The notes under the pieces: model-generated
What the model was told of the DNA's origin: nothing
Database searches by the model: none
Seen by the model: only the letters and a program-made list of their open reading frames with translations
Source of the DNA: Pirellulales bacterium
GTDB taxonomy: Bacteria; Planctomycetota; Planctomycetia; Pirellulales; Lacipirellulaceae
NCBI GenBank assembly: GCA_019636345.1
Contig: JAHBXQ010000006.1
Coordinates: 248,001 to 312,000 of the forward strand
DNA: 64,000 bases
Direction of reading: 5' to 3'
Program-made: the position numbers and the translations under genes
Part shown: positions 8,818 through 54,239 of the stretch, piece after piece
Position numbering within the stretch: the stretch's first letter is position 1
Layout of the letters: each line of letters opens with the position of its first letter

Positions 8818-10008
8818 CTACGCAGCCCCGGCTGCGGCGACGACCTTCTTCGCCGCGTCGGTCAGCCCCTCGGCGCCGATGATGTCGACGCCGCTTTCGG
8901 CCAGCATTCGGCGGCCTTCTTCGACCTCGGTCCCTTCCAGTCGCACGACCAAGGGGACGTTGAAGCCGACTTGCTTGTACGCTTCCAGGATGGCGCCGGC
9001 GATGGTCGTGCACCGCATGATGCCGCCGAAGATGTTGACCAGCACGGCCTTGACGTTCTTGTCGGCCAGCAGGATGCGAAACGCCTCGGTGACCTGATCG
9101 ACCTGGGCGCCGCCGCCGACGTCGAGAAAATTGGCCGGCTCGCCGCCGTGGAGCTTGATGAGGTCCATGGTGCTCATCGCCAAGCCGGCGCCGTTGACCA
9201 AGCAGCCGATGTTGCCTTCCAGTTGCACGAAGCTCAACCCCGCGTTGCCGGCGCGGACTTCGGCCGGTTCCTCTTCGGAGAGATCCCGCAATTCAGCGAG
9301 CGGAGCGTGCCGGAACATCGCGTTGTCGTCGAACGTGATCTTCGCGTCGAGCGCGATGACGTCGCCCTGTTTGGTGACGACCAGCGGGTTGATCTCGGCG
9401 AGGCTGGCGTCGAGGCTGACGAACAGTCGGCACAGCCCGCGCATGAATTTTTCGGCGCTTCGGACCGTGTCTCCCGTGAGCCCCAGGCGGTAGCAGAGTT
9501 TGCGGACCTGATAGCCTTGCAGCCCGGCGTCGGGGTGAAACGGTTCCTTGAAGATCAGCTCCGGGGTGTTCGCGGCGACTTCCTCGATGTTCACGCCCCC
9601 TTCGCTGGAGACCATGAGCACCGGCATGCCGCTGGCTCGATCGACCACGATTCCGAGGTACAGTTCGCGAGCAATATCGCAGCCCGCCTCGACGAGCACC
9701 TGCTGGACCTTCTTTCCCGCAGGACCGGTTTGGATGGTGACCAGTTCCCCGCCAAGCAGATTGCGGGCGACCTCGGCGGTCTCCTCAGCCGACTTCACGA
9801 GTTGCACGCCCCGTTGAGCGGGGTTGGTCTTGATCGTCCCCTTGCCGCGCCCCCCGGCGTGGATTTGGGCCTTGACCACCGCAATCGGCCCCCCCAAGGA
9901 CTTGAAAGCCGTTGCGGCCTCCTCGGGAGTTTTGGCGACAATGCTCTTGGGGACCGCGATCCCGGCGTCGCGCAGGAGCTGTTTTGCCTGATATTCGTGA
10001 ATTTTCAT
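8818..10008 (-). CDS. sucC: Succinyl-CoA synthetase, beta subunit
   Basis: Protein of 396 residues, full length for the family. It begins [17 protein letters not shown], the classic SucC start with an ATP-grasp domain, and contains [14 protein letters not shown] for nucleotide binding. The C-terminal ligase-CoA domain includes [17 protein letters not shown] and [13 protein letters not shown]. The ATG at 10008 matches the conserved N-terminus; the frame upstream is open but has no homology. It is the first gene of sucC-sucD and is divergent from the nqr operon. Which nucleotide is used (ADP or GDP) cannot be told by eye. Confidence 0.96.
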
Positions 10009-39811: not shown

Positions 39812-39894
39812 GGAGGGTAAGCGAATTGGCTAGCAGCCTGATTGGAATTCAGGTGCCGGTTTACCGGTTGCGGGTTCGAGTCCCGTGCCCTCCG
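39812..39894 (+). tRNA. tRNA-Ser(GGA)
   Basis: Class II tRNA. The acceptor arms GGAGGGT (39812-39818) and GCCCTCC pair with one terminal wobble. The anticodon stem CCTGA/TCAGG encloses loop TTGGAAT, giving anticodon GGA (serine). A long variable arm GCCGG-TTTA-CCGG confirms the class II type, and the T-arm GCGGG-TTCGAGT-CCCGT is standard. No CCA is encoded. The D-arm fits less well (position 8 is A in this alignment, where T is expected), so a check with a covariance model is worthwhile. The 3' end abuts an integrase gene 54 bases away, making this the probable insertion site of the island. Confidence 0.88.
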
Positions 39895-39948
39895 CTCGAC
39901 GTTAACGGCTGCGTCGTAACTTCCTGAGCCACAACCGCTTGTGACGCG

Positions 39949-41118
39949 CTAGTTTTCATCTGTCACCTCCGTGTGTTGAAAATGTGTTGAACTCCGTTTC
40001 GACAGCGGGCTCATTTTCGCCTCGTCGAGACGGGACATCGCCCGTTGCGACGCGTCGCTCGCAAGATGGAAGTAAAGGTCGAACGTCGCCTGATCGACAT
40101 GCCCGACCCACTTCCGTAAAACGTCGGGCGCCACCCCTGCGATCGCCGCGTTCGAAATAAAGGCATGGCGAAACGTGTGAAGGTGGCCGGACAGGCCCAG
40201 CCGCTTGACCACTCGCTTCACGCAAGCCAGCAGTCGCCGGGGCGAGATTTGGTCAGTCGTGGAACGTGAGTTTTCCAAGGCCGGCCTTGGAAACGCCCAT
40301 CGGGAGCACCTCGATTGAGCCAGCAGCACTTTTCTGGCCCGCGCACTCATTGGAACCGATCGATGATCGCCGGACTTCGGGCGCCACCCGTCCTTGGGGC
40401 GAATGTGAATCCAGGCGCCGACGAAGTCGATGTCGTCCCACGTCAGCCACACCAGTTCGCCGACCCGCATTCCGGTCTCGGCGAGCATCGTGAGCGCGGA
40501 ACGATACGGCGGTCGAGTCGCGTCGAGAATTTTCTCCACCTCGGCTTGCGACCAGCACGGTTGCAGATTTCGCCGCGGCTTGGGAATCCGCAGCCCGGCC
40601 AAAGGATCTCGCTCGATTAGTCCGCGCCGCAGGGCATAGTTCACAAGCTGGCGAATAAGAACGGTGTCGTGATGGATCGTTTTTGGACTTGACGGTCGAC
40701 GACCGGACGCCTCGTCTCCTGATTTGCGAGCGGCTCGAAAACGGTCCACAAACGACACCGAGAGTTCAGACGCCTTCTCGATTCGCGCGGCAGTTGCCAG
40801 CTTTTCGACGATCCGCAGCGCGAATTCGTACTTCTTGATTGTCTTATCGGTCCGCCCCTCGACTCGCAGGTAAGCGAGGTACTGCTCGATCACTGCATTG
40901 AGAGGGGGTTCCTGAAACGTCGGATGGACCGCACCGGCCACTAGGTCGCGGTCCAACTTGCTGGCGCGAAGTTGCGCAGTCTTCCTCGACTTGGTGCGAA
41001 GAGATTGTCGCACTTGGCGGCGGCCAACCATATACTGTGCTTGCCAGACCCGATTGCGGCGATAGATCGATACAAGCTCGCCAGCCTTCTCAGCTTTCCG
41101 CCCCTCATTTTGCGGCAT
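39949..41118 (-). CDS. int: Tyrosine recombinase/integrase
   Basis: Protein of 389 residues. Residues 1-60 give an Arm/AP2-like DNA-binding part (SIYRRNRVWQAQYMVGRRQ), then a SAM-like core-binding domain (LNAVIEQYLAYLRVEGRTDKTIKKYEFAL), then the catalytic domain. The catalytic residues are visible: Arg in ETGMRVGELVWL, the HTFRHAF box for H-x-x-R, and the WVGHVDQATFDLYFH segment with the final histidine and the nucleophilic tyrosine. The ATG at 41118 overlaps the excisionase-like gene by 14 bases. It reads towards the tRNA-Ser gene, the normal arrangement for tRNA-targeting integrases. Confidence 0.93.
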   Translation of the reverse strand: MPQNEGRKAEKAGELVSIYRRNRVWQAQYMVGRRQVRQSLRTKSRKTAQLRASKLDRDLVAGAVHPTFQEPPLNAVIEQYLAYLRVEGRTDKTIKKYEFALRIVEKLATAARIEKASELSVSFVDRFRAARKSGDEASGRRPSSPKTIHHDTVLIRQLVNYALRRGLIERDPLAGLRIPKPRRNLQPCWSQAEVEKILDATRPPYRSALTMLAETGMRVGELVWLTWDDIDFVGAWIHIRPKDGWRPKSGDHRSVPMSARARKVLLAQSRCSRWAFPRPALENSRSTTDQISPRRLLACVKRVVKRLGLSGHLHTFRHAFISNAAIAGVAPDVLRKWVGHVDQATFDLYFHLASDASQRAMSRLDEAKMSPLSKRSSTHFQHTEVTDEN

Positions 41119-41380
41119 GTGTCGTTTCACTTTCGTCGTTCGAGAAGAGAAATTCAATGAAGCGATCGCGCCAGATGCGCAGACGCTTTCCGCGACGCTT
41201 TGCGCATCGAGCAAGGAGGCCGCGCGACGACCAGTCGTAGAGCGTTCCAACACTCACCTGCGCGAGTTCCGCTGCTTGCTTCACCGACAACGAAGGCGGA
41301 TAGGTCTCGGCCCATGTGCCATCGGAGAATGCGATCTTGATTTCCGACGCCGTGAGGATGCTTCGATTGGCGCGTGACAT
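41105..41380 (-). CDS. Excisionase-like helix-turn-helix protein
   Basis: Protein of 91 residues from the ATG at 41380. The core SLSVKQAAELAQVSVGTLYDWSSRGLL followed by a basic RRGKRLRIWRDRFIEFL is the HTH_17/MerR-like excisionase pattern. It overlaps the start of the integrase gene by 14 bases and is translated just before it, so the pair works as a recombination module. It could direct excision of the island or regulate int. A longer in-frame start at 41440 adds a basic stretch without homology. Confidence 0.8.
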   Translation of the reverse strand: MSRANRSILTASEIKIAFSDGTWAETYPPSLSVKQAAELAQVSVGTLYDWSSRGLLARCAKRRGKRLRIWRDRFIEFLFSNDESETTHAAK

Positions 41381-44139: not shown

Positions 44140-44421
44140 ATGCTCGTAGAACTCGAAGCTGGCCGCTGCCGGGAATGCAGCGGCCAACTCGAAATCGAGG
44201 AGGTTGACGACGCCACGATGACCGTCGTTTGCCTTGACTGCTCAGACAGTCACTCCGTCAAGACCGACGCCTTTAACGTTCGAGGCATCCGCTATTGGCC
44301 AGCGATGATGGCCCAACAGGAAGACGGCGAGCAGCCGCACCTGCGATCCGGCCCGGCCGCCCCATCTTCGCTTCGAGATGGGGTGTGTGCACTGCTGGGA
44401 AACAACCCGCACATCGCGTAA
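44140..44421 (+). CDS. Small zinc-ribbon-like protein
   Basis: Protein of 93 residues; GAGGAG lies 10 bases before the ATG. Residues 9-35 have [10 protein letters not shown] and [12 protein letters not shown], a pair of Cys-x2-Cys motifs that should bind zinc, followed by [16 protein letters not shown]. The C-terminal 30 residues are low complexity. The function is unknown; zinc-ribbon proteins of this size are common on planctomycete plasmids and islands. It precedes hsdM by 58 bases on the same strand and could be transcribed with it. Confidence 0.65.
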
Positions 44422-44479
44422 ACTGTTGCCGAGTCTGATTTTACCTTTTGCCTCCCCATCCGGTAAGGATTCCGGCCGC

Positions 44480-46060
44480 ATGGCGAAGAAAGCTGCCTCC
44501 CCCAGAAACGGCAAGAAGAACGGCGCCAGCGCCAATCTCGGCTTCGAGGAAAAGCTGTGGGCCGCCGCCGATAAGCTCCGCGGGCACATGGACGCGGCGG
44601 AATACAAGCACGTCGTCTTGGGCCTCGTCTTTCTCAAGTACATCAGCGACGCCTTTCAAGAACTCCACGACAAGCTGGCGGCCGACAAGCACGCCGACGC
44701 CGAAGATCGCGACGAGTACACGGCCGAGAACGTCTTCTGGGTCCCCAAGGCGGCCCGCTGGACTTATCTCCAGGCGCAGGCCAAGCAGCCGACCATCGGC
44801 AAGCTCATCGACGACGCGATGACCGCTATCGAGAAAGACAACCCCTCGCTCAAGGGCGTGCTCGCCAAAGATTACGGTCGCGCGTCGCTCGACAAGCAGC
44901 GGCTTGGCGAATTGATCGACCTCATCGGCACGATTGGACTCGGCGACGCCGAGAGCCGCAGCAAAGACGTGCTGGGTCGTGTCTACGAGTATTTTCTGGG
45001 GAAGTTCGCCAACGCCGAGGGCAAAGGGGGCGGCGAGTTCTACACGCCGCAATCGGTGGTGAAGCTGCTGGTGGAAATGATCGAACCCTACAAGGGCCGC
45101 ATCTACGACCCGTGCTGCGGCAGCGGCGGCATGTTCGTGCAGAGCGAGAAGTTCGTCCTCGCCCACGGCGGCCGCGTCGGCGACCTGTCGATCTACGGCC
45201 AAGAGTCGAACAACACGACGTGGCGACTCTGCAAAATGAATCTCGCCATTCGTGGCATCGACGGCAACATCGGTACGCAGAACGCCGACACGTTCCACAA
45301 CGACCTGCACAAAGACCTCAAGGCCGACTACATCCTCGCCAACCCGCCGTTCAACGTCAGCGACTGGGGCGGCCAGCGACTCACCGAAGACGCCCGCTGG
45401 AAATTCGGCGCACCCCCCAGCGGCAACGCCAACTTCGCGTGGGTGCAGCACATGGTGCATCACCTCGCCCCCAGCGGCATCGCGGGATTCGTGCTCGCCA
45501 ACGGTTCGATGAGCAGCAATCAGTCGGGAGAAGGGGACATCCGCCGGCAACTCATCGACGGGGACCTCGTCGATTGCATGATCGCGCTCCCCGGCCAACT
45601 CTTCTACACGACGCAGATTCCCGTCTGCTTGTGGTTTCTGGCCCGCAATAAGAAGAACGGGAAGTTCAGGGATCGTCGAATAGAAACGCTCTTCATCGAC
45701 GCCCGCAAACTCGGCGTGCTCGTCGACCGCACGCACCGCGAGTTGACCGAGGAAGAAATCAACCGCGTCGCCCGCGCGTACCACGCCTGGCGCGGCGAGA
45801 AGGACGCCGGCAAGTACGAAGACGTGCCCGGCTTCTGCAAAAGCGCCACGACCGACGAGATCGCCAGCCACGGCCACGTGCTCACCCCCGGCCGCTACGT
45901 CGGCGCCGAGGCGGCCGAGGACGACGACGAACCGTTCGACGAAGCCATGCAGCGGCTCACCAACACGCTCGCCGCCCAGTTCGCCGAATCGGCCAAGCTC
46001 GAAAAGCGGATCGCCAAGAACCTCGCCAGTCTCGGCTTTACCCCGGAGAAGCTGTCATGA
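44480..46060 (+). CDS. hsdM: Type I restriction-modification system, DNA methyltransferase subunit
   Basis: Protein of 526 residues. The N-terminal helical HsdM_N domain ([35 protein letters not shown]) is followed by the N6-adenine methyltransferase domain: GGGEFYTP near residue 184, SAM motif [11 protein letters not shown] near 209, and catalytic motif IV NPPF near 288. HsdM methylates adenine at the sequence chosen by HsdS and is required for both modification and restriction. It heads the operon hsdM - DUF1016 - hsdS - ATPase - DUF4435 - hsdR. Its GC content is like the chromosome average and clearly higher than that of the nested ATPase pair. Confidence 0.95.
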
Positions 46061-46208: not shown

Positions 46209-47435
46209 ATGACCAAGAAGCGGCTTCCAGCGACGGCCAAGCACGACGCCCTGCCCATGGGGTTTGCCGCCCTGCTCGGCGACGTAAAACTCCGCATCCA
46301 GTCGGCCCAGACCCGGGCCATGACCGCCGTCAACGCCGAACTGGTTCGCCTCTATTGGGACATCGGTCGCCTTATCGACGAGCGCCAGCAGACCGAGGGC
46401 TGGGGCGCGTCGGTGATCCCCCGGCTGGCTGCCGAACTTTGCAACGAACTGCCCGAAGTGAAGGGCTTTTCTGCGCGGAACATCGGCCGCATGATCGCGT
46501 TTTTTCGGGAGTATCCCGATCCAGCCCTAATTTTGCCACAAGCTGTGGCAAAATTGCCGACCGGCCAGAAATTGCCGCAAGCTGTGGCAAAAACTGCCGG
46601 GGATTCGCTGCTTTGGGCCGTTCCGTGGGGGCACCATGCTTGGCTGCTGGAGAAGGTTAAGAACCCCGCCCACCGCCGCTGGTACATGGAGCAAACGCTC
46701 GCGGGCGGCTGGAGCCGCAACATTCTCACGCTGATGATCGACAGCCAGGCCCACGAGCGGGCCGGCAAGGCGGTCACCAACTTCGACCAGCTTCTCCCAG
46801 GTGCGCAATCCGACCTCGCCCAGCAGGCGCTCAAAGACCCGTACATCTTCGATTTTCTCACCCTCACCGAGCCGTTCCAAGAACGGGAACTCGAAACGGG
46901 TCTGCTCGCCCACTTGGAAAAATTCCTGCTGGAGCTGGGGCAGGGGTTCGCGTTCGTCGGCCGGCAGTACCGGCTCGACGTGGGCGAGGAAGACTACTAC
47001 ATCGACCTGCTGTTCTATCACCTGCGGCTACGGGCCTTCGTGGTAATCGACCTCAAGAAGGGGAGCTTCAAGCCGGAGTACGCCGGCAAGCTCAACTTCT
47101 ACTGCAACGTCGTCAACGACCAACTTCGCCACGCCGACGACCAGCCGACCATCGTCCTCATTCTCTGCCAGTCGAAGGACAACGTGCTGGCCGAGTACGC
47201 CCTCTCCGGCATCGACAAGCCGATTGGCGTATCGAGCTACGAACTCACGCGGGCACTGCCGCCGGCCTTGCAGTCGGCCTTGCCGACTGTCGAGGAGATC
47301 GAGGCGGAGATTGGGGCAGTGGAGGCCACGGCGAAGAAGGTCCCTCAAAAGAAGGGGAAAAAGCCGACAAAGAAGAAGCCAGCCAAGGGCAAAAGCAAGA
47401 AGCGGAAGCCGCCACGTTCCGGGGCGAAGTCATGA
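46209..47435 (+). CDS. DUF1016/YhcG family PD-(D/E)XK nuclease
   Basis: Protein of 408 residues, GGAGG 4 bases before the ATG. The N-terminal DUF1016 helical domain starts near residue 20 (LRIQSAQTRAMTAVNAELVRLYWDIGRLI), with GFSARNIGRMIAFFREYP. The C-terminal PD-(D/E)XK domain reads GFAFVGRQYRLDVGEEDYYIDLLFYH then AFVVIDLKKGSFKPEYAGKLNFY, giving the D and D-x-K residues near 265 and 280. A lysine-rich tail (residues 378-408) may bind DNA. The family is repeatedly found inside type I restriction operons, role unknown. A 25-residue insertion with two QAVAK units lies at 107-131. It overlaps hsdS by 4 bases (ATGA). Confidence 0.9.
   Translation: MTKKRLPATAKHDALPMGFAALLGDVKLRIQSAQTRAMTAVNAELVRLYWDIGRLIDERQQTEGWGASVIPRLAAELCNELPEVKGFSARNIGRMIAFFREYPDPALILPQAVAKLPTGQKLPQAVAKTAGDSLLWAVPWGHHAWLLEKVKNPAHRRWYMEQTLAGGWSRNILTLMIDSQAHERAGKAVTNFDQLLPGAQSDLAQQALKDPYIFDFLTLTEPFQERELETGLLAHLEKFLLELGQGFAFVGRQYRLDVGEEDYYIDLLFYHLRLRAFVVIDLKKGSFKPEYAGKLNFYCNVVNDQLRHADDQPTIVLILCQSKDNVLAEYALSGIDKPIGVSSYELTRALPPALQSALPTVEEIEAEIGAVEATAKKVPQKKGKKPTKKKPAKGKSKKRKPPRSGAKS
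46531..46590. repeat. Two palindromic units inside the DUF1016 coding frame
   Basis: The first unit (46531-46553) is TTTTGCCACA, AGC, TGTGGCAAAA: perfect 10-base arms with a 3-base loop. The second (46572-46590) is TTGCCGCA, AGC, TGTGGCAA with one mismatch. Both keep the frame open and encode LPQAVAK-like heptads, so the gene carries a short insertion-like palindrome twice. Confidence 0.7.
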
Positions 47436-48805
47436 TCGGAACACACAAGATGCAAACCCTCGGTGAGCTTGTCGATGAGGGGAAGTTGCTCATTCAAACG
47501 GGGCCGTTTGGTTCACAGCTTCACAAGCACGACTACTGTCCGCTTGGCGTCCCCGTTGTTCCGACCGAGGCAATCGGACATCGCCGGCTTCGGACTGACG
47601 GCGTACCGCAGATCAAACTCGAAAAAGCAAATGAACTGGGACGACATCGCCTGAAACCTGGAGACATCCTCTTTGCCCGCCGCGGAGTTCAAGCAACCGG
47701 GTATTCTGCAATAGTCGAACCTCAGCATGAGGGCTGGATATGTGGCACTGGCGCAATACTACTCCGCATCCTTGATGGAGACATCGATCCTACCTACCTC
47801 TCATTCCGTTTGGCATGGGACGAGTCAATCGCATGGCTCAAACAGCATGCAGTTGGTGCTGTCATGCCGAATCTCAACGAGGGCATCCTGCGTCGCTTTC
47901 CGTTGGAGCTTCCGCCCCTCATCGAACAACGCCGCATAGCCGACATTCTTGGCTCGATCGACGACAAGATCGAGTTGAACCGGCGGATGAATGAGACGCT
48001 GGAGTCGCTGGCCCGGCGGTTGTTCAAGAGTTGGTTCGTCGACTTCGACCCCGTCCACGCCAAAGCCGCCGTCCGCCGCCAGCACCCCACCTGGGACAAC
48101 CCCCGCGTCAGCCGCGAAGCCCTCCCCAACCTCGACCCCAAAATCGCCGAACTCTTTCCGGATGAGTTTGAGGAATCAACGCTGGGGCCGATCCCGAAGG
48201 GGTGGAGTGCTACGACAGTTCCCAATGCTATCGAGGTCAATCCTTCTCGTACTCTGCCGAAAGGTGTCGAGGCACCATGGCTTGAAATGGCGAATATGCC
48301 GACTCGTTCAGCCCGTGCTCTTGCATGGGAACGTCGACCGTTTGGCTCAGGGACGAAGTTCAAGAACGGCGATACGCTCGTCGCACGCATCACGCCTTGC
48401 TTGGAGAACGGCAAGACGGCCTACGTCGACTTCCTCAACGACGGAGAAATTGGGGCCGGGTCGACAGAATATATTGTTCTGTGCCCGAAAGACCCACTGC
48501 CGGCAGAGTTTGGGTATTTCCTCGCCCGCAACGACGACTTCCGGCAGCACCTCATTACGAACATGACGGGGACATCCGGACGGCAGCGAGTCCCGGCTAA
48601 CTGCCTCAACACATACCCAGTTATCGTCCCGTCCAACGGAGTTGCCGACCGATTTGGCGCGTTTGCTTCGATGGCTCTTTCGCAAATGAAGCAGAACGAT
48701 GAAGAGTCGCTAACACTGACGGCGGCACGAGATCGGCTGTTACCAGTGTTATTGAGCGGGCGCGCTGAACTCTATTTACTAAGGATACTTAAATGTCACA
48801 CATAA
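47432..48805 (+). CDS. hsdS: Type I restriction-modification system, specificity subunit
   Basis: Protein of 457 residues with two target recognition domains. TRD1 covers about 1-150 (TLGELVDEGKLLIQTGPFGSQLHKHDY, KPGDILFARRG, LPPLIEQRRIADILGSIDDKIELNRRMNETLE for the conserved helix), and TRD2 about 250-390 (STLGPIPKGWSATTVPNAIEV, FKNGDTLVARITPCLENGK). The central stretch DFDPVHAKAAVRRQHP is typical of this subfamily. HsdS sets the DNA sequence recognised by HsdM and HsdR. The last helix normally ends near LLPVLLSGRAEL; here a further 11 residues extend into the start of the ATPase gene, which it overlaps by 13 bases. The TRDs have lower GC than the conserved regions, as expected for swapped domains. 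Confidence 0.93.
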   Translation: MIGTHKMQTLGELVDEGKLLIQTGPFGSQLHKHDYCPLGVPVVPTEAIGHRRLRTDGVPQIKLEKANELGRHRLKPGDILFARRGVQATGYSAIVEPQHEGWICGTGAILLRILDGDIDPTYLSFRLAWDESIAWLKQHAVGAVMPNLNEGILRRFPLELPPLIEQRRIADILGSIDDKIELNRRMNETLESLARRLFKSWFVDFDPVHAKAAVRRQHPTWDNPRVSREALPNLDPKIAELFPDEFEESTLGPIPKGWSATTVPNAIEVNPSRTLPKGVEAPWLEMANMPTRSARALAWERRPFGSGTKFKNGDTLVARITPCLENGKTAYVDFLNDGEIGAGSTEYIVLCPKDPLPAEFGYFLARNDDFRQHLITNMTGTSGRQRVPANCLNTYPVIVPSNGVADRFGAFASMALSQMKQNDEESLTLTAARDRLLPVLLSGRAELYLLRILKCHT

Positions 48806-50151
48806 CGCGATTTGAGATCAAAGCACTACACGGCAGGAAGGATGTTGACCTTCACCTCAAGGATAACACACTCATTTTGGTCGGCGAGAACGGCGCTGGG
48901 AAAACTACGATCCTACACCTGTTGTATTACCTCCTTTCGGGCCAATGGCCATCGATCGCCAGATATCGGTTCTCCGAGTTGGCTATCACGATCGGAGGAA
49001 CGCGGTATGTACTTAAGTACTCCGATTTCGCAAAGTCGTTGGATGGACTTGATCGCCGTCTCTCACGACGGTTACCTCCCCATGTAAGAAGAAGGTTTAT
49101 TGCACTTGTGGAAGAAAAGGAAGGCCGCCTTGTCACTCCAGAGCTAGAACTACTCTGCCATCAATACGACATTCCACTGCAGTTTGTACTACATGAAATT
49201 GAAGAGCTGTCGCAAGCGACAGGAAAATCCGCTCCCATTCGCAAGATATTGGAGGGCATTCGCGATGCACTTACAGCCCAACTCCTGTACCTTCCCACCT
49301 ATCGCCGCATCGAGCAAGAGCTACATCTCATCTTCAAAGGTATGGATGAAAGAGAGCTGCGCAATCGACGAGAAATGCTTTCAGCTAGACGAGGCGACAA
49401 TACCTTTGTTGAATTGATTGAATTCGGCATGAAGGATGTTGAGCGCGCGATTTCGGAGACGCTTCAGCAACTAAATGCATTCGCGCGAGAACGGCTCAAT
49501 AATCTGACGTTTGGGTATTTAGGCGATGTGGTAGAGAAGCAGTACTCTGAAGTGAAGCTCAAGAGTATCAAGGGCGCTCCCGACGAGACAGTGGTGCGCA
49601 TCCTCGATCGCATTCAGGATCACATTCTATCGTCCGAAAACAAGCAGCACCTGCGCGAAATCATCGATGGTGTAAAGAAGGGTGAGGCGCAGACCGAGCA
49701 CACTAAGGTCATCTGCCACTACTTTGCAAAACTTATGGAGTTTCACGCGGAGCTTGAGGCAAAGGAGGCTCGCATCGCTGCTTTCTGTCGTGTGTGCAAC
49801 GAGTATTTAGTGGACAAAGACTTTCACTACGACACATCCAAATTCTCATTCTCTATCCTTCCGACATCAAGAGTTGCCGAGGACGTCAAGATCGAATTGC
49901 ATCATCTGTCTTCGGGGGAGAAGCAAATCGTATCACTTCTTAGTCACTTATATTTATCTGGCACCGATGACTATTTCGTTCTAATCGACGAGCCGGAGCT
50001 ATCACTGTCAGTGCCGTGGCAACGTCGTTTCCTTCTCGACATAAGAAACGGTGGTTACTGCTCAGGGCTGGTTGCAGTCACCCACTCACCCTTTATTTAT
50101 GACAATGAGCTAAGGAAGTACGCGCATGGACTCGGAGAGTTCGTGACATGA
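48793..50151 (+). CDS. AAA/ABC-type ATPase, PARIS AriA-like
   Basis: Protein of 452 residues. Walker A GENGAGKTT at 31-39, ABC signature LSSGEKQ near 373, Walker B FVLIDEPELSLS near 396, and the switch histidine VTHSPF near 429. Between the P-loop and signature is an about 330-residue helical insertion with a coiled-coil-like region. This is the AAA_15/AAA_21 architecture of AriA and OLD-family ATPases. It overlaps hsdS by 13 bases and the next gene by 4 (ATGA). GC is visibly lower than hsdM and hsdR, which suggests separate acquisition. A partner with DUF4435 immediately after makes PARIS the best match; a generic OLD-like or Septu-like ATPase is the main alternative. Confidence 0.85.
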   Translation: MSHITRFEIKALHGRKDVDLHLKDNTLILVGENGAGKTTILHLLYYLLSGQWPSIARYRFSELAITIGGTRYVLKYSDFAKSLDGLDRRLSRRLPPHVRRRFIALVEEKEGRLVTPELELLCHQYDIPLQFVLHEIEELSQATGKSAPIRKILEGIRDALTAQLLYLPTYRRIEQELHLIFKGMDERELRNRREMLSARRGDNTFVELIEFGMKDVERAISETLQQLNAFARERLNNLTFGYLGDVVEKQYSEVKLKSIKGAPDETVVRILDRIQDHILSSENKQHLREIIDGVKKGEAQTEHTKVICHYFAKLMEFHAELEAKEARIAAFCRVCNEYLVDKDFHYDTSKFSFSILPTSRVAEDVKIELHHLSSGEKQIVSLLSHLYLSGTDDYFVLIDEPELSLSVPWQRRFLLDIRNGGYCSGLVAVTHSPFIYDNELRKYAHGLGEFVT

Positions 50152-51128
50152 AGGCCAAGGCAGCGACAGCGGCCATACCGATGACTGCGGTACATGCCGC
50201 AGCAATTTCGTCAAAGATCGCCAGCTACCATGAGTTCTTGGCTAGATTTTCCAAGACTCGCAAGGTGGTCTATGGCTTCGTAGAAGGTCGTGAAGACCCG
50301 GCCTTTTATCGGGGCTTTATAGAGCAGTTACTCCCAAGCTGCTGGGAAGTCGAGTTGTGGCCTGCTGGCAACAAAGACTCCGTTTTACGGATTCACAAGG
50401 ATATCGACTGGCGGCGATTCCAGAAGGCACGGATTTGCTTTTTTGTGGATCGCGACTTGTCTGACCTTACGCGAGAGCGTACTCCGTCAGATCGCAATAT
50501 CTACGTCACAGAGGGCTATTCGATTGAGATCGATGTCGTCAATCGCGCAACAGCACGTCGCGTCCTGACGGAATTGTGCGGCTTCGCTTCAACCATCCAT
50601 AGCGACGTAGACACGCTATGCGATTTGTTTGAACAGCAATTCAACACGTTTCTGGATTCCCTTGTCTCCGTCATGGCATGGATTCTTGCTTGGCGCCGAA
50701 AAGGAGTGAGAGCAAACCTGTCAGATATTCGAATGCAGGACCTCTTTGAAATACAGGGAGGTATTCTGCGAGAGAATAGAATGCCGCGAGGTAAACGCGA
50801 TGTAGTGCAATACATTCATGAACAATGCAAGGTGCCGCATGACTGTTCAATTGACACGCATCCCTTCGAGACCGAGCTGCGGAATGCGAACGCTTACAAG
50901 AGGCTTACACGCGGCAAGTACGTTCTGTGGTTTCTAGTCGAATTCTGTAACGCTGCAAATCGAGACGCTGTGTCCTTATGCGCGTCATTGACCTCACGTC
51001 CGCGAATGAATGTTACGTTTTCACAGAAGAATGGCATGGCGATTATAGGACCGCGCGCCAGAATCCCAGATGGTCTAAGACGATTTGTAGAATCGACGTA
51101 CTGCGCGTACATTGCAAAGCAGAAGTAG
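50148..51128 (+). CDS. DUF4435 TOPRIM-like protein, PARIS AriB-like
   Basis: Protein of 326 residues. The DUF4435 signature is present: VVYGFVEGREDPAFYRGFI near 42-58 with the glutamate that heads a TOPRIM-like site, then ICFFVDRDLSDL near 98-109 with the acidic triplet, and the family segment NIYVTEGYSIEIDVVN. AriB of the PARIS system is a DUF4435 TOPRIM nuclease, released by AriA when phage anti-restriction proteins such as Ocr are sensed; it then cuts tRNA. Here the gene overlaps the ATPase gene by 4 bases and is followed by hsdR after 3 bases. AT-rich codon use sets it apart from hsdM and hsdR. Catalytic residues should be confirmed by alignment. Confidence 0.82.
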   Translation: MKAKAATAAIPMTAVHAAAISSKIASYHEFLARFSKTRKVVYGFVEGREDPAFYRGFIEQLLPSCWEVELWPAGNKDSVLRIHKDIDWRRFQKARICFFVDRDLSDLTRERTPSDRNIYVTEGYSIEIDVVNRATARRVLTELCGFASTIHSDVDTLCDLFEQQFNTFLDSLVSVMAWILAWRRKGVRANLSDIRMQDLFEIQGGILRENRMPRGKRDVVQYIHEQCKVPHDCSIDTHPFETELRNANAYKRLTRGKYVLWFLVEFCNAANRDAVSLCASLTSRPRMNVTFSQKNGMAIIGPRARIPDGLRRFVESTYCAYIAKQK

Positions 51129-51131
51129 CTT

Positions 51132-54100
51132 ATGGCATTCACCGAATCCACCATTGAAGAAGCCGTACTGGAATGGGCCGAGGAACTCGGCTATGCCATT
51201 CTGCACGGCCCGGAGATCGCGCCGGACGAACCGGCCGCGGAGCGCGATTCGTTCGAGCAGGTGATTCTTGGTGATCGGCTGCGCGACGCTTTGGCCCGGA
51301 TCAACCCCAGAGTGCCCGCCGAGGCGCTGGACGAGGCGTTTCGCCGCGTGTTGCGTACCGAGACGCCGAGCCTCATCGAGAACAACCGCCGGTTCCACAG
51401 ACTGCTGGTCGATGGCGTCGATGTGGAGTATCAGGCCGATGGCCGCACCGTGCATGACAAGGTGTGGTTGGTCGACTTCGAGAAGCCGGCGAACAACGAC
51501 TGGCTTGCGGTCAATCAGTACACCGTCATCGAGGACAAGCACAATCGTCGCCCCGACGTGGTGCTGTTCGTCAACGGCCTGCCGCTGGTGGTGATCGAGC
51601 TGAAGAACGCGGCCGACGAGAACGCAACGACTCAAAAAGCCTATGCCCAGTTGCAGACCTACATCGCGCAATTGCCGACGTTGATGACCTACAACGTCTG
51701 CCTGGTGGCCAGCGACGGCATCACGGCCCGCATTGGCTCGCTCACCGGCGGCTGGGATCGGTTCATGCCGTGGCGCACCGTGGACGGCAGCGACATCGCC
51801 CCCAAGGGGAAGCCGGAACTCGACGTGCTGGTGCGCGGCGTCTTCGAGCAGGGCCGGTTTCTCGATCTTGTGCGGCACTTCATCGTCTTCGAGGTGGACG
51901 GGCCGAACATCGCTAAGAAGATGGCCGGGTACCACCAGTTCCATGCCGTGAACAAGGCGGTCGATTGCACGCTTGCGGCCGTGTCGCCGCAAGGGGATCG
52001 CCGCGTCGGCGTCGTCTGGCACACGCAGGGGTCGGGCAAGAGCCTGACAATGGCGTTTTACGCCGGCAAGGTGATCCGGCACCAGGGGATGCAGAACCCG
52101 ACCATCGTCGTGATTACCGACCGCAACGACCTGGACGAGCAACTGTTTGGCACCTTCGCCGGTTGCCACGAACTGCTGCGGCAGAAGCCCACGCAAGCCG
52201 ACGACCGCGACGAGGTGAAGAAGCTGCTGGCCGTCGCGTCGGGGGGCGTGGTGTTTACGACGTTGCAAAAGTTCGCCCCTGACGATGATCCTGAGTTGGG
52301 GGCGAAGACGTACCCAGTGCTTTCCGACCGGCGGAATATCGTCGTCATCGCCGACGAGGCCCACCGCAGCCAGTACGGCCACTACGCCAAGGCGAAGAAG
52401 ACCGGCGAGATCAGCTACGGGTTTACCAAGCACCTGCGCGACGCCCTGCCGAACGCCTCGTATCTGGGGTTCACCGGCACGCCGATTGAGCTTGGCGACA
52501 AGAACACGAAGGCCGTGTTTGGCGATTACATCGACGTGTACGACATCAGCCGGGCCGTCGAGGACGGGGCCACGGTCAAGATTTACTACGAAGGGCGGCT
52601 CGCGAAGCTGGAGTTGAACGCGGCCGAGCGGCCGAAGATCGACGAAGAGTTCGAGGACATCACCGAGGGGGAGGAGCAGACTGCCAAAGAGAAGCTCAAG
52701 ACCAAGTGGGCCGCCCTCGAAAAACTCGTCGGCAGCGACAAGCGGATCAAGCTGGTTGCCCAGGACATCGTCGACCACTGGGCCGAGCGGCTCGCGGTGA
52801 TGGACGGCAAGGCGATGATCGTTTGCATGAGTCGCCGAATCTGCGTCGAACTCTACAAGGAACTGGTTCGCCTGCGGCCCGACTGGCATAGCGACGCCGA
52901 CGAAGAGGGGACGCTCAAGGTCGTGATGACCGGCTCGGCGAGCGACCCGACCGACTGGCAACAGCACATCCGCCCCAAGCGGGGCCGCGAGGCGCTGGCC
53001 AAGCGGTTCAAGAAGGCCGACGACCCGCTCAAGCTGGTGATCGTCCGCGATATGTGGCTCACGGGGTTCGATGCACCGTGCATGCACACGATGTACGTCG
53101 ATAAGCCGATGAGCGGCCACAACCTGATGCAGGCCATCGCCCGCGTGAACCGGGTGTTTAAGAACAAGCCGGGCGGGCTGATCGTCGATTACTTGGGGCT
53201 GGCGGCCGAACTCAAAAAGGCGCTCGCCCAGTACACCAAGCAAGACCGCGACGACACGGGCATTCCCATCGACGAAGCGTTGGAGGTGCTCTTCGAGAAG
53301 TACGAGGTCGTCACCGGCCTGATGCACGGCTTCGATTATTCGGCGTTCTTCACCGGCACGGCGTCGGAGCGAGTCGGCGTCATCCCCGCCGCGATGGATT
53401 TTATTTTGCAGCAGGACGACGGCCAGAACCGCTTTGTGCAGGCCGTCACCGAGCTATCGAAGGCGTTCGCCCTCGTGGCGACGCACGACGAGGCCGTGAA
53501 GATTCGCGAGGAGGTGGCGTTCTTCCAGTGCCTGCGGGCACAGTTCGCCAAGCTCGGCGGCAGCGGCGGAGGCGGCCCGACGCCGGAAGACCTGGACGCC
53601 GCCGTGCGGCAAATTATTTCCCGCAGCGTCGCGTCGGACGAGGTGATCGACATCTTCGCCGCCGCCGGCATGGAGCGGCCCGATATTTCGATTCTGTCGG
53701 ACGAGTTTCTCGCCGAAGTTCGCGACATGCCCCAGCGGAACTTGGCGCTGGAAGTGCTGCGGAAACTGTTGAGCGACGAGATTAAGGCCCGTTCCCGCAA
53801 GAACCTCGTGCAGTCGCGGTCGTTCGCCGAGATGCTCGAAAAGTCGATCAAGAAGTACCAGAATCGGTCAATTGACGCCGCCCAGGTGATCGCCGAACTC
53901 GTCGACTTGGCCAAGGACATGCGCGCCGCCCAGGACCGCGGCGAAGAGCTTGGTCTCACCGAAGACGAAATCGCGTTCTACGACGCGCTGGAGGTCAACG
54001 ACAGCGCCGTGAAGGTGCTCGGCGACGACACGTTGCGTGACATTGCCCGCGAACTCGTCGAATCGGTTCGCCGCAATGTCACGATTGACTGGACCGTGAA

Positions 54101-54239
54101 GGAAAGCGTGCGAGCAAAACTCCGCGTGCTCGTAAAACGCATCCTCAAGAAGTATGGCTACCCGCCCGACAAGCAGGCCCAGGCGACCGAGACGGTGCTG
54201 AAGCAGGCGGAGTTACTTTGTGCGGACTGGGCTGCGTAA
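51132..54239 (+). CDS. hsdR: Type I restriction-modification system, restriction/translocase subunit
   Basis: Protein of 1035 residues. The N-terminal nuclease domain has [21 protein letters not shown] (D near 141, E-x-K near 156). The SF2 translocase follows with [15 protein letters not shown] (Walker A near 298), [11 protein letters not shown] (DEAH near 407), LGFTGTPIE (motif III), and [21 protein letters not shown] with IARVNRV (motifs V-VI). The C-terminal helical domain (DUF3387-like region near 800-1000) should bind HsdM. HsdR translocates and cuts unmodified DNA. It is separated from hsdS by the two PARIS-like genes and lies 3 bases after the second. It is the last gene of the operon. 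Confidence 0.95.

Follow-up and report, generated by a model that had tools for sequence, protein, structure and literature searches.

The window analysed here is a 64,000-nucleotide stretch of a Pirellulales genome (assembly GCA_019636345.1, contig JAHBXQ010000006.1, positions 248,001 to 312,000, forward strand), in which two adjoining genes, one for an ATPase and one for a DUF4435 protein, lie within a type I restriction-modification (RM) operon. The original prediction had taken them for a PARIS-like pair, PARIS being a defence system made of the ATPase AriA and the nuclease AriB, and had proposed that the pair was inserted as a module and acts as a back-up when phages block restriction. 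The genome gives 66 matches to SBP_bac_10 (DUF1559), a family that marks planctomycetes, against none in 14 control genomes, consistent with a planctomycete source. The gene order on the + strand is hsdM, DUF1016 nuclease, hsdS, ATPase, DUF4435 and hsdR. The AriA-type OLD/ABC ATPase (48793..50151, +) is the predicted sensor of the pair, and the AriB-type TOPRIM nuclease (50148..51128, +) the predicted effector. The junctions are exactly as claimed: hsdS and the ATPase gene overlap by 13 bases, the ATPase and DUF4435 genes overlap by 4, and hsdR begins 3 bases after the DUF4435 gene. Both reading frames of the pair are full length, and both proteins carry the motifs attributed to them (GENGAGKTT, LSSGEKQ, LIDEPELSLS and VTHSPF in the ATPase; VEGREDPAFY and FFVDRDLSD in the DUF4435 protein).

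Pfam confirmed hsdM, hsdS and hsdR, bearing out the type I setting. hsdM (44474..46060, +; the start is assumed, the open reading frame (ORF) opening at 44378) encodes an N6-adenine methyltransferase with N6_Mtase (369 bits) and HsdM_N (102 bits) domains. hsdS (47432..48805, +) encodes the specificity subunit (Methylase_S, 51.7 bits in Pfam; Specificity_I, 2.3e-115 in PADLOC), and hsdR (51132..54239, +) the restriction subunit, with HSDR_N, SWI2_SNF2, T1R_D3-like and T1RH-like_C domains in Pfam and a match to REase_I in PADLOC. The hsdM-hsdS gap holds an additional gene of its own, unmentioned in the original prediction: a DUF1016/YhcG PDDEXK nuclease gene (46209..47435, +; YhcG_C 215 bits, DUF1016_N 126 bits), which corresponds to the PADLOC candidate PDC-S02. 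Gaps from the DUF1016 gene to hsdR are all 3 bases or less; because these genes overlap or nearly abut, the ATPase and DUF4435 genes are likely to be transcribed with the type I genes as a single mRNA. A promoter scan returned 0 sites, against 2.8 in shuffled sequence. The pair forms a second defence embedded among hsd genes, on the same strand and with operon-like spacing.

The ATPase scores above the Pfam cut-offs for AAA_21 (62.2 bits) and AAA_15 (51.4 bits). The published Pfam rule for PARIS asks for AAA_15 (32 bits) or AAA_21 (27 bits) adjoining DUF4435 (27 bits) (PMC9122126; statements on published systems, here and below, refer to excerpts of the cited papers), and the window pair satisfies it with 51.4, 62.2 and, for DUF4435, 74.3 bits. 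In the hidden Markov model check that had been proposed, the PADLOC AriA profiles matched at 1.7e-31 (residues 251-438) and 1.4e-17 (full length); AriA was the best family, and the best family other than AriA was mad3 (1.2e-15). AriA was also the top match in a search of PDB sequences, at 2.1e-14 with the single sequence and 1.2e-25 with a five-row profile. The structural model of the ATPase has a mean predicted local distance difference test (pLDDT) score of 79.7, with residues 173-204 and 208-210 poorly modelled. AriA chains rank first in a Foldseek search with this model (1.8e-13), and a VIA comparison with AriA (8ux9_B) gave a Z score of 22.4 (root-mean-square deviation (rmsd) 4.9, 358 aligned residues); the next family, PtuA, reached 16.5, in match lists where a family's absence does not exclude it. 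The ATPase could have fallen in an unrelated family, and these scores place it with AriA. The fold alignment spans the two proteins end to end, unlike the sequence alignment considered below, and the catalytic residues are invariant across 75 rows. Profiles and predicted folds together support an AriA-type assignment.

The DUF4435 protein likewise scores above its Pfam cut-off, and AriB is its best PADLOC family (1e-24). Its AlphaFold2 model (pLDDT 95.2) returned two Foldseek matches below 0.001, both AriB, and the VIA comparison with AriB (8ux9_A) gave a Z score of 14.7 (rmsd 4.8, 263 aligned residues), followed by the OLD TOPRIM domain at 8.3. A five-row profile retrieved AriB first among PDB sequences, with a weak score (0.009). 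The TOPRIM acidic residues, whose absence would have spoken against a nuclease of this kind, are all present: each of the 74 rows has E46, D50, D101, D103 and E127. The alignments used for folding comprised 75 of 81 ATPases and 74 of 75 DUF4435 proteins. An E26A mutant of AriB causes no ribosome stalling (PMC12409363), and E46 is probably the counterpart of that residue. As with the ATPase, profiles and predicted folds support assignment of the DUF4435 protein to the AriB type.

The PARIS-like identity is upheld: by every PARIS criterion examined here, in sequence and in predicted structure, the two genes form a real and intact PARIS-type pair. We also considered two other identities. An anticodon nuclease of the PrrC/RloC kind was rejected: at 0.001 neither protein has a Pfam match to AAA_13, which we take to be the family of PrrC/RloC (a point that also bears on the L102 slot protein below), and a search for AAA_13 in the window's genome gave no match. 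Gabija (GajA-GajB) was rejected as well, since the ATPase and nuclease are separate genes here; Gabija GajA joins an OLD ATPase and TOPRIM in one protein (PMC12839542). That the pair is a relic, or an addiction-type module without a defence function, seems highly improbable: both frames are full length, and the catalytic residues show no variation across 74 and 75 rows, even though deletion of the PARIS genes in a Salmonella BREX locus raised protection against phage TB34 about ten-fold (PMC11341690).

Five ATPase rows found by plain BLAST, with no motif in the search, have the motifs PTYRRxE and FGMxD in common. A scan for these motifs in one genome per species (84,980 species) yielded 240 confirmed relatives, and the relatives surveyed here (84 loci) are the best 80 of the 240 genome loci together with four plasmid loci. 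The 80 kept relatives are 31 to 68% identical and come from many phyla, Methanothrix included. Because the scan used those motifs, their invariance in 75 rows is partly by construction; the window ATPase appears, from sequence, to belong to a distinct PARIS subfamily with conserved PTYRRxE and FGMxD. DUF4435 lies directly downstream of the ATPase in 78 of the 84 relatives, most commonly with a 4-base overlap (21/78). The other six lack it by profile, one of them (L040) being cut by a contig end. ORFs in the relatives were called mechanically (at least 90 residues in the 84 pair loci, at least 60 in the 40 slot loci described below), so small ORFs may be spurious.

A PIN domain occurs in 5 of 77 downstream ORFs (L052, L058, L063, L088 and L095), confirmed by protein in L052 and assigned from gene sizes in L088, L095, L058 and L063; some relatives may therefore use another nuclease. 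DUF4435 is absent by profile from L052, L058 and L063, a possible effector swap. OLD ATPases in BREX have been reported with alternative nucleases (PMC12839542). Three pairs adjoin other methyltransferase genes: a DUF1156 DNA methyltransferase gene with a Swt1-HEPN gene on a Gloeocapsa plasmid (L014), a site-specific methyltransferase gene on a Leptospira plasmid (L015), and a D12-class methyltransferase gene immediately upstream of the pair in L037. Within the window's phylum, DUF4435 matches were found in 12 of 392 genomes, 9 of them above the cut-off; a tblastn search of these loci (~2-4 kb), which were not used further, found no hsd gene besides the window's own copies. Among the 59 genomes closest to the window's, the DUF4435 protein is present only in the window's own genome; searches for it gave no confirmed relative in viral contigs and none in phages.

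The claimed drop in guanine-cytosine (GC) content is measurable. The ATPase and DUF4435 genes have 48.9 and 50.5% GC (hsdM 63.0, hsdS 56.5, hsdR 62.6), and the pair lies 13.6 points under the remainder of the window. In L018, a Verrucomicrobiaceae metagenome-assembled genome (MAG), the pair has 46.6 and 48.6% GC against 63.4 for hsdM and 59.2 for hsdR. However, we rejected the GC step as a sign of recent insertion: in all 72 loci that could be tested, the pair has a lower GC content than the remaining coding DNA of its locus (median difference -12.3 points). Six further loci that lack the pair were set aside, as were six that offer little coding sequence outside it. The pair is thus GC-poor wherever it was tested, and the step dates nothing. 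The result is a warning not to infer the age of such insertions from a drop in GC, and it would hold even if the trigger of the pair were unrelated to restriction.

How often does the pair meet type I genes? Local iterative profiles detected hsd genes in the flanks of 7 of 84 pair loci. An HSDR_N domain (1.2e-16) marks one upstream ORF that could not be traced among the ten candidates inspected, so the type I profiles may miss type I-like genes; because of this ORF and of short flanks in many loci (at least 5 kb on both sides in 46 of 84 only), 7 is a lower bound. In five of the seven the pair is inside the operon: hsdS-[pair]-Fic-hsdR in L018, hsdS-[pair]-SLFN_AlbA_2 protein-ORF-hsdR in L029, hsdM-[pair]-hsdS in L032, hsdR-[pair]-hsdM-hsdS in L075, and hsdM remnant-[pair]-hsdR in L020. 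The pair follows hsdS in L031, where one ORF was counted as hsdM by size alone, and L097 has RM genes nearby on the opposite strand. The count of five compares with 2.2 expected for a random slot in each locus (P 0.02; post hoc and with small numbers). In L020 the N-terminal hsdM remnant (9516-9941) adjoins the pair, hsdR encodes 961 residues and no hsdS was detected; in this locus the pair may persist beyond the life of its RM operon.

On the ATPase tree, made by a quick method and with long branches for L017 and L089, the type I label needs 6 changes with L097 included, the same when only the starred branches are used, and 5 without L097; the label is somewhat clustered (9 of 500 shuffles were as low). 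These repeated changes argue for several origins, and the pair and type I operons have probably been united several times, in different slots. L018, the nearest of the relatives with a nested pair, has it in the same slot as the window, with 67-68% identity in the ATPase, 56-57% in the DUF4435 protein, 68% in HsdM and 59% in HsdR. A single ancestral union of pair and RM operon for these two loci was rejected: in a tree of the N-terminal 500-640 residues of HsdR, L018 groups with L126 and L127 (100/99), both carrying other cargo, and sisterhood of the L018 and window HsdR is rejected by the approximately unbiased (AU) test (p 8.9e-8), for a pairing chosen after the ATPase tree had been viewed. 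This grouping means that the pair and hsdR do not share one history, whether through repeated entry of the pair into the slot or through exchange of hsdR. The trees of both the ATPase and HsdR support the view that the pair was inserted as a module, a view to which the GC step lends nothing.

These distributions bear on whether the pair might be held silent by docking on HsdMSR, in the manner of PrrC, so that an inhibitor disturbing the enzyme frees the nuclease. PrrC sits in a type IC locus and is activated when Stp inhibits EcoPrrI (PMC12707154), and a full-length AAA_13 protein occupies the slot of the window pair in L102. However, the pair occurs in distantly related type I families (their HsdR shares 59% identity with that of the window in L018, 30% in L020 and 23% in L075), unlike what one docking surface would give; 77 of the 84 loci with this ATPase subfamily have no detected type I gene; and E. 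coli AriA itself holds AriB, in the published excerpts. Because the pair occurs both with distant type I families and alone, we regard PrrC-like docking as improbable.

We surveyed the hsdS-hsdR gap in related operons as well. The window HsdR matched 61 of 392 genomes of the phylum at 1e-100; from 71 listed matches, ranks 2-47 minus six (mostly contig ends) gave 40 loci, of which 32 could be resolved and 8 could not. The gap holds at least one same-strand extra ORF (at least 60 residues) in 27 of the 32, to a total of 59 ORFs in 39 similarity clusters, and in 25 of 27 loci the cargo has a lower GC content than hsdR. The 59 ORFs include Abi_C (7), RhuM (4), DUF4268 (4), SIR2 (3), HerA (2) and TIR (2), with SIR2 and HerA adjacent in L120; by protein, they include the AAA_13 protein of L102, a reverse transcriptase in L128 and GmrSD in L116. 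The PADLOC candidates PDC-S05, PDC-S11 and PDC-S23 account for 4, 4 and 3 matches. A fair share of the cargo has no defence label, such as a subtilase in L137. The hsdM-hsdS gap holds an extra ORF in 11 of 24 loci, which is a DUF1016 gene in 6 of 24, as in the window. Profiles of the pair matched no ORF of the 40 fetched stretches. The hsdS-hsdR gap in related operons is a slot for varied cargo, much of it of defence type, and its 59 ORFs in 39 clusters are leads for defence genes.

Some slot proteins stand out: two without a Pfam match (L102 5928-7601, 558 residues; L127 8372-9991, 540 residues) and one that fuses an HTH, an AID/APOBEC-type deaminase domain and HATPase_c_4 (L111 5729-7402). 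In the window, a tyrosine integrase gene (39949-41253, -) lies 53 bases from tRNA-Ser(GGA) (39812-39895), about 3 kb before the RM operon, an arrangement that suggests a genomic island. An island was not established from this integrase by repeat searches in the window and genome: within the window no stretch of at least 12 bases of the tRNA-Ser recurs and no second attachment site was found, and in the genome only two other contigs carry its 22-base 3' end again, with 1-2 mismatches.

The diversity of this cargo lends some plausibility to a PARIS-fold module whose trigger is unrelated to restriction, for which the hsdS-hsdR gap would be merely a landing and expression site for short cassettes. 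Most of the 39 clusters from 27 of 32 loci have no obvious tie to the sensing of restriction inhibitors, most relatives of the pair are located elsewhere, and the PARIS of a Salmonella BREX locus gave no answer to Ocr (PMC11341690). Against this, the trigger of PARIS in E. coli, Ocr, is an anti-restriction protein (PMC9122126), and where hsd genes are nearby the pair is inside the operon above the random-slot expectation, in small numbers and post hoc. We regard a trigger unrelated to restriction as a possible but doubtful explanation.

We lean slightly towards a restriction-linked role, in which the pair is a divergent PARIS-type cargo of the hsdS-hsdR slot, a second line behind restriction that inhibitors of type I enzymes set free. 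E. coli PARIS, a second line behind RM, arrests growth upon Ocr (PMC9122126); its nuclease cleaves tRNA (PMC12409363), and the complex comprises six AriA and three AriB subunits (PMC12707154). By analogy, the window pair would be triggered by restriction inhibitors and give a back-up abortive response. The ATPase would keep the TOPRIM nuclease silent within a complex; a phage inhibitor, Ocr-like or of another kind, would block the restriction enzyme; the ATPase would recognise the inhibitor protein and release the nuclease; and the nuclease would cut host RNA (tRNA is the target of E. coli PARIS), stopping growth. Restriction would be the first line and the pair the second, both made from one message. 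The retention of DUF4435 directly downstream in 78 of 84 relatives speaks for this explanation, as does the position of the pair inside the operon in five of the seven loci with flanking hsd genes, against 2.2 expected (post hoc).

Several observations weigh on the other side. No hsd gene was detected in the available flanks of 77 of 84 relatives; a type I neighbour is thus dispensable for the pair. The slot, moreover, accepts many kinds of cargo. The sequence alignment of the ATPase with E. coli AriA covers the head regions only, leaving residues ~131-285 uncovered, and the sensor part may therefore recognise something else. The single DUF4435 sequence retrieved no AriB from PDB sequences. 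Finally, neither Ocr nor Gp5, under the conditions used, drew a response from the BREX-embedded Salmonella PARIS (PMC11341690).

We put forward more tentatively that the slot of this widespread type I family is a plug-in port, where back-up abortive effectors are swapped while hsdMSR stays, so that one message would encode both restriction and its alarm, and where the guard in the window would be a PARIS subfamily whose diverged sensor reads lineage-specific type I inhibitors. If the pair does guard its own operon, slot cargo would point to the anti-type I proteins of that lineage's phages, and the locus would be a compact two-tier system suited to study in E. coli K-12.

Compared with known systems, the window pair shares with E. 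coli PARIS its ATPase-then-DUF4435 order, the Pfam rule, the AriA and AriB folds and the TOPRIM acidic residues (PMC9122126), at 17-19% identity in the fold alignments; unlike it, the pair has the conserved PTYRRxE and FGMxD motifs and lies within a type I operon. Several PDC families of PADLOC have matches among the slot cargo. A 2024 preprint by Payne, judging by its title and citations, reportedly searches for genes embedded in defence operons. The PARIS of the Salmonella type 1 BREX system (StySA) is likewise written into a DNA-modification defence operon (PMC9009780, PMC11341690), between pglX and pglZ of BREX, whereas the window pair is in type I RM. DarTG2 of enteropathogenic E. coli (EPEC) occupies the same hsdS-hsdR slot as the window pair, but is a toxin-antitoxin cargo; its authors call the slot a potential recombination hotspot and describe four genomes with an AAA-like ATPase and a putative RNA-binding protein there, a pair not named PARIS in the text examined (PMC12255303). 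PrrC, present in ecoprrI and in the RM loci of islands in Pseudomonas, is an abortive nuclease that cuts tRNA and is encoded within a type I operon (PMC12707154, PMC12629846), and is a single protein of another family, unlike the two-gene window pair; most type I RM systems of one Pseudomonas hotspot carry a second embedded defence, often PrrC (PMC12629846). In the excerpts of openly accessible papers examined, we found no report of PARIS within a type I operon. Second defences embedded in such operons have precedents (PMC12255303, PMC12629846), and PARIS in BREX is already published (PMC9009780, PMC11341690); what merits description is the joining of a PARIS pair to type I RM, the repeated occurrence of this union, and the replacement of cargo around hsdMSR.

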